Below, piece by piece: positions 50,463 through 54,940 of a DNA stretch of 64,000 bases; the first letter of the stretch is position 1; every line of letters begins with the position of its first letter. The position numbers and the translations under genes were made by a program. Origin of the DNA: Geodermatophilus pulveris (GTDB lineage: Bacteria; Actinomycetota; Actinomycetes; Mycobacteriales; Geodermatophilaceae). The stretch spans positions 1 to 64,000 of the forward strand of contig NZ_FZOO01000012.1 in assembly GCF_900188375.1 (NCBI RefSeq), read 5' to 3'. The notes beneath the pieces were generated by a model. That model was not told the origin of the DNA, did no database searches, and saw only the letters and a program-made list of their open reading frames with translations.

Positions 50463-52118
50463 GTGACACCCGGCCCGGAGGACCTCACCGACGGTGACCT
50501 CGAGGACGCGCTGTGGCGCCTGCTCGCCGCCGCCGACCGGGACGACCCCGCCGCCTTCACCGCCGAGCACGACCGCGCAGAGGCCGCCCTGCTCGCCGCG
50601 ACCGACCCGTGGTGGGTCGCCTGGCGGCACGCGCTGGCCGCCCGCCGCGGCCTCGTCGACGGCGACCGCGCGGCCGCCGCGGCGGGGGTCGCCGCGGCCC
50701 GGGAGGCGCTGCGCGACTGCCCGCCCGACGCCCGGGCCGCGCTGGCCCTGGCCCACCTCGCGGCCGTGGAGGTGTCCGCCGACCACGTGGACGCGGCGAT
50801 GGTGCTGGCCGTCGACGCCTGCCTGCTGGCCGAGGCCGCCGACGACGACGGGCCCTCCCGCGCCCGCACCCACGCCCACCTGTGGCTGTCGCTGGCGCTC
50901 GCCGCCCTCGACCTGGAGGAGCTGGCCGTCGCCGAGGCGCAGGCCGGCTCCCGGGCGGCCCACCGGCTGCCCGGCGTCTGCGACCGCCACCGGCTGCTGC
51001 AGCTCTGTGCCCAGCAGCACGCCGAGCTGGCCCAGACCCTGCACCGGCGCGGCGAGACCGACCGCGCCCAGGAGGCGGCCAGCACCGCGGTGGGGTGCGC
51101 GGAGGCCGCCCGCGCGCTGGACGGGGATCCCGGACCCGACGACCAGGACCTGCTCGACGTCGTCCAGGCGTGGGCGGTGGCCGGGCGCGGCGACGTCGAG
51201 GACGCCGTCGGCCCGCTGCGCCGGGCACACCGGCGGGTGCACCGGGACGGCGGGACCTGGCTGCGCGGCTACGCCGACCTGGTGCTGGCCCGCGTGCTGA
51301 CCCGGCTGGCCCGCACCGCGTCCGGCGGCGGGCACGACGCCGAGGCCACCGACCTGCTGGTGGACGCCGCCGGGGCCTTCGCCGCCAGCGGCGACCGCCG
51401 TCGCTACCGCCAGTGCCTGCTGGAGCTGGGCCAGGGCACCGCGGCACTGGGCCGCCCCGCCGAGGCGCTGCACTGGCTGGAGGCCTACCGCGCCGACACC
51501 GGCCGGGCGCAGGCCCGCGGCCGGGAGCTGTGGGCGGAGATGTTCGTGCGGCGCAGCCGGCTGCGCGACGCCCGCCGCCGCACCGCGCACCTGCGCCGGG
51601 CCGCGCTGGAGGACCCGCTCACCGGGCTGGGCAACCGGCGCAGCGCCGAGAGCCGGCTGGGCGCGCTCCGGGGCGGCGCCGGGCCGGTGTCGCTGGCCGT
51701 GGTCGACGTCGACCGCTTCAAGGCGGTCAACGACGACACCTCCCACTCGCACGGGGACGCCGTGCTGCGCCGGGTGGCCGAGCTGCTGCGCGAGCACAGC
51801 CGCACCGGCGACGAGGTGTACCGGTGGGCCGGCGACGAGTTCCTCGTCGTGCTGCCGACGGCGACCGCGACCCAGGCGCTGCTCGCCGTCGACCGGCTGC
51901 GGGCCGCCGTCGCCGACGCGGACTGGGGCGAGCTGCAGCTGCCGGAGCCGGTGACCGTGAGCATCGGCGTGGCCACCGGGGACGCCGGGGACGGCGAGCC
52001 GCTGGGCTGGCGCTCGCTGTTCGACACCGCCGACCTGCACCTGTCCAGCGCCAAGCGCGGCGGCCGCAACCGGGTGCGTGCCCCGGGCCCGACGGGCGCC
52101 GGAGAGACCCGGCCGTGA
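50463..52118 (+). CDS. TPR-like plus GGDEF protein
   Basis: Protein of 551 residues. Residues about 1-370 are Ala-rich helices of tetratricopeptide style (AALALAHLAAVEVSADHVDA, HAELAQTLHRRGETDRAQEA), then a GGDEF domain (DPLTGLGNRRSAESRL, VVDVDRFKAVNDDTSHSHGD). The signature is WAGDEFLVV, AGDEF instead of GGDEF; this variant occurs in some active diguanylate cyclases. No membrane segment or EAL domain, so cytoplasmic. GTG 50463 follows GGGAGGGG. It overlaps the next paralogue by four bases. Confidence 0.87.
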   Translation: MTPGPEDLTDGDLEDALWRLLAAADRDDPAAFTAEHDRAEAALLAATDPWWVAWRHALAARRGLVDGDRAAAAAGVAAAREALRDCPPDARAALALAHLAAVEVSADHVDAAMVLAVDACLLAEAADDDGPSRARTHAHLWLSLALAALDLEELAVAEAQAGSRAAHRLPGVCDRHRLLQLCAQQHAELAQTLHRRGETDRAQEAASTAVGCAEAARALDGDPGPDDQDLLDVVQAWAVAGRGDVEDAVGPLRRAHRRVHRDGGTWLRGYADLVLARVLTRLARTASGGGHDAEATDLLVDAAGAFAASGDRRRYRQCLLELGQGTAALGRPAEALHWLEAYRADTGRAQARGRELWAEMFVRRSRLRDARRRTAHLRRAALEDPLTGLGNRRSAESRLGALRGGAGPVSLAVVDVDRFKAVNDDTSHSHGDAVLRRVAELLREHSRTGDEVYRWAGDEFLVVLPTATATQALLAVDRLRAAVADADWGELQLPEPVTVSIGVATGDAGDGEPLGWRSLFDTADLHLSSAKRGGRNRVRAPGPTGAGETRP

Positions 52119-54940
52119 CGGTGCACGGCCGGTGGGACGGTTGTGACGCACGTGCCCCCGGCCCCCGGCGTGCCCCCGGGACGGTGCTCGACTCCGCCGG
52201 CACCGGGAGGCACAGTGCGCTGGTGCCTCCGGGAGCCCTGCACCACCGGGTGACCGCCGCCCTGACCACCGGGCAGCTGGACGAGGCCGAGGAGCTGCTG
52301 GCCGACGTCGGCTCCGGCTCCTCCCCCTACGTCGCGGCGGCCCCTCACGACCCCCCCTCGGACGGTGCGGCCGACCTGGGCCGGGCATGGGCGGACACGC
52401 TGCGCGCCGAGCTGCTCGTCCGCCGGCTGCGGCAGGCCGGCTTCACCCTCGTCGGCGACCCGGTGGGGTCCGCGCCCGACACGGACCCGGCCGACCCCCT
52501 CGACCTGCACGCGGGCGTCGCCGAGCTCATCGACGGCCGCCCGGCCGGCACCGGCGACGGGTCGGCGTCGCACGCCGCGCTGGCCATCGCCCTGGTCCGC
52601 TCGGCGAAGGCCTCCTTCGACGCCACCGAGGACGAGTTGCAGCGGGCCGCCGGCCTCGCCCGGCACGCCCGCATCGAGCTGCTGTCCCGCCGCATCGACG
52701 CCGCCATGGACGAGGCGGTGGAGGCGGCCAGCCTGCTGGACCCGGCGCTGCCGCCCTCGGCGCTGCTGGTGCAGACGCTGACCACCCTCGCCGGCGTGCT
52801 CGCCGACCTCGAGCTGCTGCCGCTGGCCCTGGACTACCAGCGGCGCGCGCACGAGACCGCGGTGGCCGCCGCCGCCCTCGACGCGACCGGCGACCACCCG
52901 GACGGCGACCCCGACGTCCTCGTCGCCCGCGCGGCCAGCTGCCTGGGCGAGCTGTGCGCCGAGCTCGGGGAGGCGCTGCTCGACGAGGGCGACCCGGACG
53001 CGGCCGCGCCGCACTTCGCCGAGGCCCGCGCGCTGGCCGAGCAGGCGCTGGCCCTGCTGCCCCCGGAGTCGGCCGGGGCGGTCGTGGCCGCGCAGGTCGT
53101 GCACGGCTGGGCCCTGGTCGGCGCCGGCGAGCACGCCTCGGCGGTGGGTCCGCTGCGGGCCGCCGTCCGGGCCGCCGGTGCCGGCGACCCGGCGCTGCAG
53201 GCCGCGGCGCTGCTCGCCCTCGGCCGGGCGCTGCGGCGGCAGGCCGACGGCGACGGCGCCGACGAGCACCTGGTCCGCGCGCTGGCCACGGCCGGCGAGC
53301 ACGGCCTCCCCCGGGTGCGCCGGGCCGCGCTGCGCGAGCTGTGCACGCTGCACGCCGAGCGGGACGACGCCGGCCGGGCGCTGCCCTACCTGCAGGCGTA
53401 CCTCGCCGACGAGCTGGACCGCGTCGACGAGCGGCGCACCCGGTGGGTGGAGCTGTTCGGCCGCCGCAAGAGCCTGCTGGAGACCGAGCGGGTCGCCGGG
53501 CAGCTGCGCCGGCAGGTCTACGAGGACACGCTCACCCACCTGCCCAACCGGCGCTACGCCGAGGCCCGGCTCGACGGGCTGCTGGACGGCGGCGGGACGA
53601 TCGCGCTGGCCGTGGTGGACGTCGACCGGTTCAAGGAGGTCAACGACGCCATCGGTCACGCCGGCGGCGACGAGGTGCTGCGCCGCGTCGCCGAGGTGTT
53701 GGTGGCCGGGTGCCGCGACACCGACGAGGTGTGCCGCTGGGCCGGCGACGAGTTCGTCGTCCTGCTGCCCGACACCACCGCCGAGCAGGCCGAGCCCGCG
53801 CTGGAACGCTGCCGCCGCGCCGTCGCCTCGACCGACTGGGCCGGCCTCGGGCTGCCCGCGCCGGTGACGATCAGCGCCGGCATCGCGTCGGCCACCGTCG
53901 GCGACGACCGGCGCACGCTGTTCTCCGCCGCCGACGGGGTGCTCTACGACGCCAAGCGCAGCGGCCGCGACCGCGTCGTCCGGCTGTCGGCGGTGACCCA
54001 GACCCGGGCGGCGGGCCCGCCGGCCGCCGCGGCTGGGGCGGCTGTGACGGACGGGTCCCCCGGGGACGACACGGTCCCCGCCGGCTCCCCGGGGCCGGCC
54101 GCCGGGGCCCCTAGGGTCCCTGCCGTGCAGCCCACCCCGCTGGACGACCCGGCCGGCGAGACCGGCGGTTTCGCCCCCCTCCTCGTCGAGCCCGCCGACC
54201 CGCCGCTGGGCCTGGGCAGCCCCGCCGAGCCCGCGCTGGCCCCGCTGCCGGCGGTCGGCGCATCCGACCTCCCGGCCGCGCCGGCAGGCCGGGCGCCGGC
54301 CGGACCCGACGTCATCTGGGGCACCGGCCGCAGCACCGAGCAGGTGCTGGCCCTGGTCCGCACCGCGCGCCGGGAGTTCCCGGACCGGGCGGCCGTCGTC
54401 GTCCGGGCCGCCGCCGAGACGCTGGTCGCGCTGGCCGGCGAGCACGACGCCTACACGACCGTCGACGCCGCGTCGATGTCCGCGGCCGTCGGCCCGCTGC
54501 CCGAGCCGGCCGGCCGGGTCGCCGTGGTGTGCGGGACCGGCGGGGACCTCGCGGTCGCCGCGGAGGCCGCCTTCGCCGCCCGCGTCACCGGCACCGGCGT
54601 GGTGCGGGTGGACGACGTGGGCGGCAGCCGCTTCCGCGCCGGGTCCCTGGACGGCGTGGTGCCCGAGGACGTCGACTGCCTGGTCGTCGTCGCGGGCCTG
54701 GACGCCGCGCTGGGCGGCCTGCTCGGCGTGCTGACCGACGTGCCGGTCGTCGCCGTCCCGACCTCCACCGGGCAGCCCGGCGCGTTCGGCGGGTTCGGCG
54801 CGCTGCTGACGATGCTGTCCTCGACCGCCCCCGGCGTCGTGGTGAGCACCATCGACAACGGCCACGCCGCGGGCGTCTTCGCCGCCCGCGTCGCCCGCCG
54901 GACGCGCCGCCGGGGAATGGCCCCCCCGGGTCTCAGCTGA
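52115..54940 (+). CDS. GGDEF protein fused in frame to a LarB-like domain
   Basis: One open frame of 941 codons. Residues about 40-450 are TPR-like helices, and about 465-620 a GGDEF domain (EDTLTHLPNRRYAEARL, DVDRFKEVNDAIGHAGGDE, WAGDEFVVLL). An Ala/Pro/Gly-rich linker (about 625-740) follows, then a LarB/AIR-carboxylase-like domain to the end: PDVIWGTGRSTEQVLALV, RVAVVCGTGGDLAVAAEAA, CLVVVAGLDAALGGLLGVL, VPTSTGQPGAFGGFGALL, STIDNGHAAGVFAARV. In LarB the catalytic Cys lies in an NSCA motif; here it reads SSTA. GTG 52115 overlaps the previous stop. GTG 54125 could start a separate LarB-like protein, so fusion versus internal start is open. Confidence 0.75.
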   Translation: MTVHGRWDGCDARAPGPRRAPGTVLDSAGTGRHSALVPPGALHHRVTAALTTGQLDEAEELLADVGSGSSPYVAAAPHDPPSDGAADLGRAWADTLRAELLVRRLRQAGFTLVGDPVGSAPDTDPADPLDLHAGVAELIDGRPAGTGDGSASHAALAIALVRSAKASFDATEDELQRAAGLARHARIELLSRRIDAAMDEAVEAASLLDPALPPSALLVQTLTTLAGVLADLELLPLALDYQRRAHETAVAAAALDATGDHPDGDPDVLVARAASCLGELCAELGEALLDEGDPDAAAPHFAEARALAEQALALLPPESAGAVVAAQVVHGWALVGAGEHASAVGPLRAAVRAAGAGDPALQAAALLALGRALRRQADGDGADEHLVRALATAGEHGLPRVRRAALRELCTLHAERDDAGRALPYLQAYLADELDRVDERRTRWVELFGRRKSLLETERVAGQLRRQVYEDTLTHLPNRRYAEARLDGLLDGGGTIALAVVDVDRFKEVNDAIGHAGGDEVLRRVAEVLVAGCRDTDEVCRWAGDEFVVLLPDTTAEQAEPALERCRRAVASTDWAGLGLPAPVTISAGIASATVGDDRRTLFSAADGVLYDAKRSGRDRVVRLSAVTQTRAAGPPAAAAGAAVTDGSPGDDTVPAGSPGPAAGAPRVPAVQPTPLDDPAGETGGFAPLLVEPADPPLGLGSPAEPALAPLPAVGASDLPAAPAGRAPAGPDVIWGTGRSTEQVLALVRTARREFPDRAAVVVRAAAETLVALAGEHDAYTTVDAASMSAAVGPLPEPAGRVAVVCGTGGDLAVAAEAAFAARVTGTGVVRVDDVGGSRFRAGSLDGVVPEDVDCLVVVAGLDAALGGLLGVLTDVPVVAVPTSTGQPGAFGGFGALLTMLSSTAPGVVVSTIDNGHAAGVFAARVARRTRRRGMAPPGLS

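Follow-up and report, generated by a model that had tools for sequence, protein, structure and literature searches.

The window, that is, the whole stretch of 64,000 nucleotides analysed here, includes on its forward strand two consecutive genes for GGDEF proteins. The second does not end behind its GGDEF domain and continues in the same frame into a domain resembling LarB, the NaAD carboxylase/hydrolase which converts NaAD to P2CMN in the synthesis of the nickel-pincer nucleotide (NPN). The locus is composed of the following features.

50463–52118, + strand: GGDEF1, a tandem TPR-like/GGDEF protein with an AGDEF signature and an RTGD motif resembling an I-site (about 551 aa; presumed start codon)
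52115–54940, + strand: fused open reading frame GGDEF2::LarB-like (941 aa, GTG start)
52376–53479, + strand: helical TPR-like N-terminal region (residues 88–455)
53522–53974, + strand: GGDEF (diguanylate cyclase) domain (residues 470–620; Pfam PF00990)
53714–53725 and 53741–53755, + strand: RDTD and AGDEF, respectively, within the GGDEF domain of the fused frame
53996–54298, + strand: disordered Ala/Pro/Gly linker (residues 628–728; pLDDT < 50)
54112–54117, + strand: TAGGGT, which may serve as the −10 box for internal initiation, 7 nt before GTG 54125
54125–54940, + strand: putative second, leaderless product, a free LarB-like protein (271 aa from GTG 54125)
54305–54904, + strand: LarB-like domain of the AIR-carboxylase fold, lacking the catalytic Cys (a Thr codon, 54824–54826, takes the place of Cys221)

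On translation, the frame 52115–54940 is free of stops until TGA 54938–54940 and encodes, in this order, the TPR-like region, the GGDEF domain, the disordered linker and the LarB-like domain. Pfam scores it at 124.9 bits for GGDEF, against a cut-off of 23.8, and at 32.7 bits for AIR carboxylase, where the cut-off is 30. An initial sequence-only reading of this DNA, which had proposed that a GGDEF domain with an AGDEF signature runs in frame into a LarB-like domain, is thus borne out by translation and by Pfam. The N-terminal region reaches 30.6 bits with TPR_MalT, below the cut-off of 45, and its predicted model is mostly helical. In the full-length model the tether at residues 628–728 is disordered and pTM is 0.46, so that the arrangement of the LarB-like domain relative to the GGDEF domain is not reliable.

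The RDTD motif precedes AGDEF by five residues, and R534, D537, G544, D545 and E546 are invariant in an alignment of 68 sequences. This alignment excludes loci whose gene start is absent or unsure (L040, L043, L050, L053, L059, L074, L092, L097 and L108) as well as L093, which is cut at its end. Five relatives, all of them fused, carry AGDEY instead of AGDEF. The Pfam score, the [GA]GDEF signature and the RxxD inhibitory site identify the protein, by its sequence, as a diguanylate cyclase, whose activity itself is a prediction. The start codon GTG 52115 shares four bases (GTGA) with the TGA stop of GGDEF1. Each of the 68 loci counted for this overlap has a relative of GGDEF1 upstream, and a comparable overlap is kept in 56 of them. 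Since the four-base overlap is conserved, GGDEF1 and GGDEF2 can be considered a tandem pair, and GGDEF1 probably forms one operon with the fused gene.

Two other stretches of the gene are unusual. Codons 33–40 (52211–52234) retain AT-ending codons which are otherwise rare: Ser34 is AGT in all 65 rows with Ser, and the codons of Pro38 and Gly40 end in A or T in 88% of 67 rows each, compared with a mean AT-ending rate of 3.3% over 764 columns. They sit in the consensus GTGCACAGTGCGCTCGTGCCACC (64 of the 68 sequences lined up) and may represent a control element acting at the DNA or RNA level; alternatively, GTG 52223 may be a second start. Within the linker, at 54164–54244, GGFAPLL..., DPPLG... 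and EP.L.P are conserved amid fast-changing residues, with Phe686 invariant in 68 sequences; this stretch is possibly a binding peptide.

A fusion fixed in the Geodermatophilaceae

The DNA is about 79% GC, and an open frame alone is therefore weak evidence; it is the conservation of the frame which provides the evidence. A scan of GTDB contigs with two peptide patterns taken from Geodermatophilaceae, which could for this reason miss more distant fusions, identified 77 loci. They are labelled Geodermatophilus, Modestobacter, Blastococcus, Klenkia, Goekera, Trujillonella and, in one case, Geodermatophilaceae bacterium, with two further labels, a "Frankiales" MAG and a "Bacillus" record marked unverified. 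This last, L074 ("UNVERIFIED_ORG: Bacillus sp. AZ43"), is probably mislabelled since its contig bears the Geodermatophilaceae fusion gene. Six of the 77 loci are too short upstream to test for the fusion. In the window and in all 71 testable loci, the two parts lie in the same open frame. The 72 linkers (window included) have 55 different lengths and contain no stop in the fusion frame, versus 68 and 41 in the other frames.

A second set, partly overlapping since many of the 77 loci are apparently from the same strains, comprises 61 genomes near the window, its own genome counted, 48 of which matched the LarB-like domain. Of the loci of relatives read first, 28 of 29 are fused in frame. The exception, L126 (genome G017, a single contig), has a one-base deletion in the linker which breaks the fusion frame. 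This may be a sequencing error or decay, since the TANNNT motif considered below is also missing there (alignment by eye). The set includes 37 genomes of the family, of which 34, G017 counted, carry the fused type at an identity of at least 59%; G029, G032 and G034 have Cys-type LarB matches instead, and G034 has a short partial match as well. Among 150 genomes of the order, 18 matched the fused protein's N-terminal region. These 18 all belong to the Geodermatophilaceae, and no orthologue of this region of GGDEF2 was found outside the family among the 150. A class-wide GGDEF search matched 165 of 296 genomes, with at most 47% identity outside the family among the matches listed.

These observations establish a genuine gene fusion which is a fixed trait of the family, and they are best read as indicating that it is ancestral to the core Geodermatophilaceae, bacteria living in soil and on stone. 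The loss of a stop codon by the upstream neighbour is consequently no local accident; like an artefact, such an accident is ruled out by the conservation in the window and the 71 testable loci. The sequence-only reading had named a stop codon between the domains in relatives as a refutation; the fusion frame has none over the 72 linkers, and G017, a further genome, has the frameshift. It had also named a sequencing error there as a refutation. Indel errors arise readily in high-GC sequence and G017 illustrates a one-base indel, but that an assembly or sequencing error in the linker should have joined two separate genes is extremely improbable and is refuted by the 71 testable loci, which come from separate records and all share this frame.

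A LarB fold without its catalytic residues

The AlphaFold model of the C-terminal domain has a pLDDT of 86.1. Its best 27 Foldseek matches are all LarB chains (7mj0, E 5.6e-16), and VIA-align to LarB 7mj2 gives Z 24.6 and an rmsd of 2.8 over 198 residues, with PurE at a Z of about 15. The structural comparison which had been suggested from the sequence thus places the predicted model in the LarB fold. By profile, the domain remains below the cut-off of 175 of the LarB equivalog NF033503 (122.8 bits for the whole frame, 126.3 bits from GTG 54125), and it is not a PurE (24.2 bits with the purE model; cut-off 149.6).

The Cys of LarB is reportedly a nucleophile (the title of a 2021 study by Rankin is said to name it as such). 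At the corresponding position of the NSCA motif, Cys221 (residue numbers follow the PDB chains and were placed by alignment), the window has Thr, as had been pointed out from the sequence. None of the 76 fused domains retains this Cys, versus all 16 canonical LarB rows (the truncated L093 and L097 were left out of the former and L122 out of the latter). Instead, the fused domains carry A, S, T, G or P at position 221. Ser127 and Tyr204 are likewise absent from all 76, and Thr126 and His158 are kept in only seven and nine. In contrast, D128 is retained in 75 and E134, T200, S201, D231 and G233 in every one. Positions conserved in LarB and changed in the fused domains include K57 (to R), G181 (to A) and Y204; these possibly belong to the LarB nucleotide site, and their change could mean that binding has been lost.

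Over 15 close pairs chosen by hand, dN/dS is 0.15 for the LarB-like domain, 0.06 for the GGDEF domain and 0.165 for the TPR-like region. For the linker it is 0.66 before and 0.51 after GTG 54125 (15 hand-chosen pairs); such fast evolution is as expected of a tether, but also fits a weakly needed joint. A tree built from 16 canonical domains and 19 fused ones (the window and 18 of the 77 loci) separates canonical from fused with 100/100 support. Since the catalytic residues are lost and dN/dS is 0.15, the C-terminal domain is a pseudo-LarB under purifying selection.

Could the domain nevertheless be a Cys-independent enzyme, a carboxylase or phosphoanhydride hydrolase acting on a pyridine or imidazole nucleotide? 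Its low dN/dS, the retention of D128, E134, T200, S201 and D231 and an AIR-carboxylase Pfam score barely above the cut-off would fit such an activity. However, C221, S127 and Y204 are missing throughout and H158 from nearly all of the fused domains, no new residue has become fixed at position 221, and the score with the purE model is very low. We regard this possibility as improbable.

The distribution of the other NPN genes bears on the same question. All 23 genomes of the genus which were searched for every part carry the fused domain. A second, separate LarB is found in 13 of them, the same 13 in which LarE exceeds its cut-off, and LarC occurs in these 13 and in G014; in nine of the 23, the second LarB, a LarE above cut-off and LarC are all absent. 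The second LarBs all have TSD and the Cys: 17 of 17 in one set, 11 of which are from the 13 genomes, and also those of L002, L119 and L120, which complete the 13. The fused domain is present in all 23 genomes and none uses it instead of LarB; it is therefore not a LarB replacement, and it does not depend on the nickel-pincer pathway. A new c-di-GMP-linked enzyme, one of the two possibilities offered by the sequence-only reading, is unlikely because Cys221 and Ser127 are lost and all 13 LarE genomes of the genus keep a separate Cys-LarB. A still-working LarB was likewise judged unlikely from the residue loss and the gene profile.

The locus nevertheless has a link to this pathway. Of the 77 loci, 41 have larC downstream in the same orientation, and in 36 of the 77 it is no more than 0.8 kb away (one locus lacks downstream DNA). 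On this basis the fused domain probably originated in the nickel-pincer pathway. The remark from the sequence that neither larC nor larE is nearby is correct for the window, but in many relatives larC follows the fusion closely. In the genome of the window, the sole larC match and the sole larE above cut-off are on contig C12, not C17, and the single larC follows a Cys-LarB there; the window has either lost a larC neighbour of the fusion or never had one. No GGDEF match was found near the canonical LarB loci L109–L123 within the DNA retrieved.

Within the genus, G005, G014, G018, G020, G021 and G022 have a single larC match, and it follows the fusion. In all of these except G014 the Cys-LarB is located apart from the fusion locus, beside larE in the last four, which leaves the genes of the cofactor pathway distributed among at least two loci. 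Together with the proximity of larC elsewhere, the fact that five of these six genomes have their Cys-LarB and LarE away from their only larC could suggest that the domain is a regulatory subunit of NPN synthesis, pairing with canonical LarB or LarC and tying the pathway to c-di-GMP. This seems quite unlikely in view of the nine genomes of the genus which maintain the fusion and have no larC, no larE above cut-off and no second LarB.

A putative internal start in the linker

TANNNT is the usual −10 box of M. tuberculosis (PMC3898074) and, when placed about 12 nt ahead of the start, marks leaderless genes in Actinobacteria and other high-GC groups (PMC3160421). In the window, TAGGGT at 54112–54117 is followed after 7 nt by GTG 54125. 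This is a TANNNT at leaderless distance from an RTG, and a leaderless transcript is predicted. A count over 463.6 kb from the same genome, made up of 400 kb of contig C12 plus the window minus its linker, shows TANNNT ahead of ATG or GTG most often at spacings of 6, 7 and 8 (31, 22 and 25 cases); 18 other spacings average 7.5 cases. Among the linkers, 33 of 34 TANNNT–RTG pairs at spacings of 0–15 are separated by exactly 7 nt and are in frame, across 32 of the 72 loci; G. africanus and G. chilensis are among the species which have the motif, and G. nigrescens is one which lacks it. Common descent explains part of this clustering. The T and A of the motif are constant while the residues which they help to encode vary (V, P, A, D, I, S and F, then R, T, S and I), and of 62 Val-x-x-Val anchors, 32 have both the third-base T and the first-base A, against background rates in the linkers of 4.6% and 9.2%, respectively. 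TANNNT-N7-GTG is present in both main halves of a midpoint-rooted tree and requires 11 changes on it, and for these reasons the internal leaderless promoter is probably old and has been lost many times.

The presence of the motif does not follow that of larC. Over 68 rows, 17 have both, 12 the motif only, 15 larC only and 24 neither (Fisher p 0.14), and a comparison of independent pairs was also not significant. The idea that the internal promoter is kept for larC is thus unsupported.

The strongest form of the argument for an internal start is that there are in practice two genes, the LarB-like protein being made only from GTG 54125 as a leaderless product and the open frame being incidental. 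The TAGGGT-N7-GTG arrangement, the genomic enrichment of TANNNT at spacings of 6–8, the recurrence of the motif in 32 of 72 linkers despite varying encoded residues and the frameshift in the linker of G017 would all agree with this. On the other hand, the 40 linkers without the motif are still in frame, linkers of so many different lengths contain no in-frame stop where the other frames have dozens, and G017 itself is devoid of the motif, so that its frameshift may be error or decay. We therefore consider an exclusively internal start unlikely. The second possibility of the sequence-only reading, a LarB-type protein started at GTG 54125 whose upstream neighbour had lost its stop, can accordingly be divided: the start gains from the motif in these linkers, and the stop loss gives way to a fusion which is family-wide. 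The motif makes it plausible that a free LarB-like protein is produced alongside the fusion, and both products may exist.

A proposed role and its relation to known systems

As the best explanation, which we favour tentatively, the pseudo-LarB would be a non-catalytic, probably nucleotide-binding and/or oligomerizing module of a diguanylate cyclase, with a free copy where the motif has been kept. A former larB probably stood between the tandem GGDEF pair and larC. In-frame joining to the second GGDEF gene and the loss of LarB catalytic residues would have left a LarB-like domain which would now act as a non-catalytic module of the cyclase. The module would most likely keep a nucleotide-binding fold and a tendency to oligomerize. 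The former is proposed because LarB acts on NaAD and its structures have been solved with AMP and NAD; as for the latter, the occurrence of chains A–F of 7mj0 and 8soq among the Foldseek matches is a hint of LarB oligomers, not proof. GGDEF pairing, and hence c-di-GMP output, would then be tuned either by self-assembly or by a bound pyridine or adenine nucleotide. In species with TANNNT-N7-GTG, that of the window included, the leaderless transcript would probably yield free pseudo-LarB, which could mix into oligomers of the fusion protein; where larC follows, the transcript would carry larC too.

A more specific and rather unlikely version is that the dead LarB is a sensor of NaAD/NAD-type nucleotides which sets cyclase output, the internal leaderless promoter adding a free copy of the sensor which enters the same oligomers and so tunes the response. 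If true, c-di-GMP signalling would follow pyridine-nucleotide status. To our knowledge, the input signals of many diguanylate cyclases are unknown. In this case the module is conserved across the family and the substrate of its ancestral enzyme, NaAD, is known, which allows immediate testing of candidate ligands. The promoter pattern inside the fused frame also provides a handle on fused genes which still give separate products.

In the open-access literature searched we found no report of a GGDEF–LarB fusion or of a dead cofactor enzyme as a cyclase module and, by title and beginning of abstract, no paper on a Geodermatophilaceae diguanylate cyclase with a LarB-like module; in PMC11796402 and PMC7583248, no occurrence of "fused" was found. 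What appears new, within the literature searched, is the use of a dead cofactor-synthesis enzyme as the module of a GGDEF protein. The data suggest that a metabolic cofactor enzyme has been recruited as a non-catalytic signalling part, with its likely original neighbour larC retained in many species.

Compared with LarB itself (NF033503; PDB 7mj0–7mj2), the fused domain shares the fold over its whole length, about 36% identity with the solved LarB and, in many relatives, larC as the downstream gene. It differs in lacking the Cys and Ser127, in its position behind a GGDEF domain, in scoring under the equivalog cut-off and in persisting where the nickel-pincer pathway is absent. About two thirds of the domain adopt the fold of AIR carboxylase (PurE), and the Pfam AIRC score exceeds its cut-off, whereas the purE model scores far under its own. 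The putative internal start resembles those of leaderless Actinobacteria genes, with 13 nt here from the first T compared with about 12 nt, but the motif of the window sits inside another open reading frame. Finally, GGDEF domains fused to sensory modules are of a known kind (PF00990), and the fused protein conforms to this pattern with an AGDEF signature and an RxxD site behind a TPR-like region; it departs from it in carrying its additional module at the C-terminus and in having a dead cofactor enzyme as this module.
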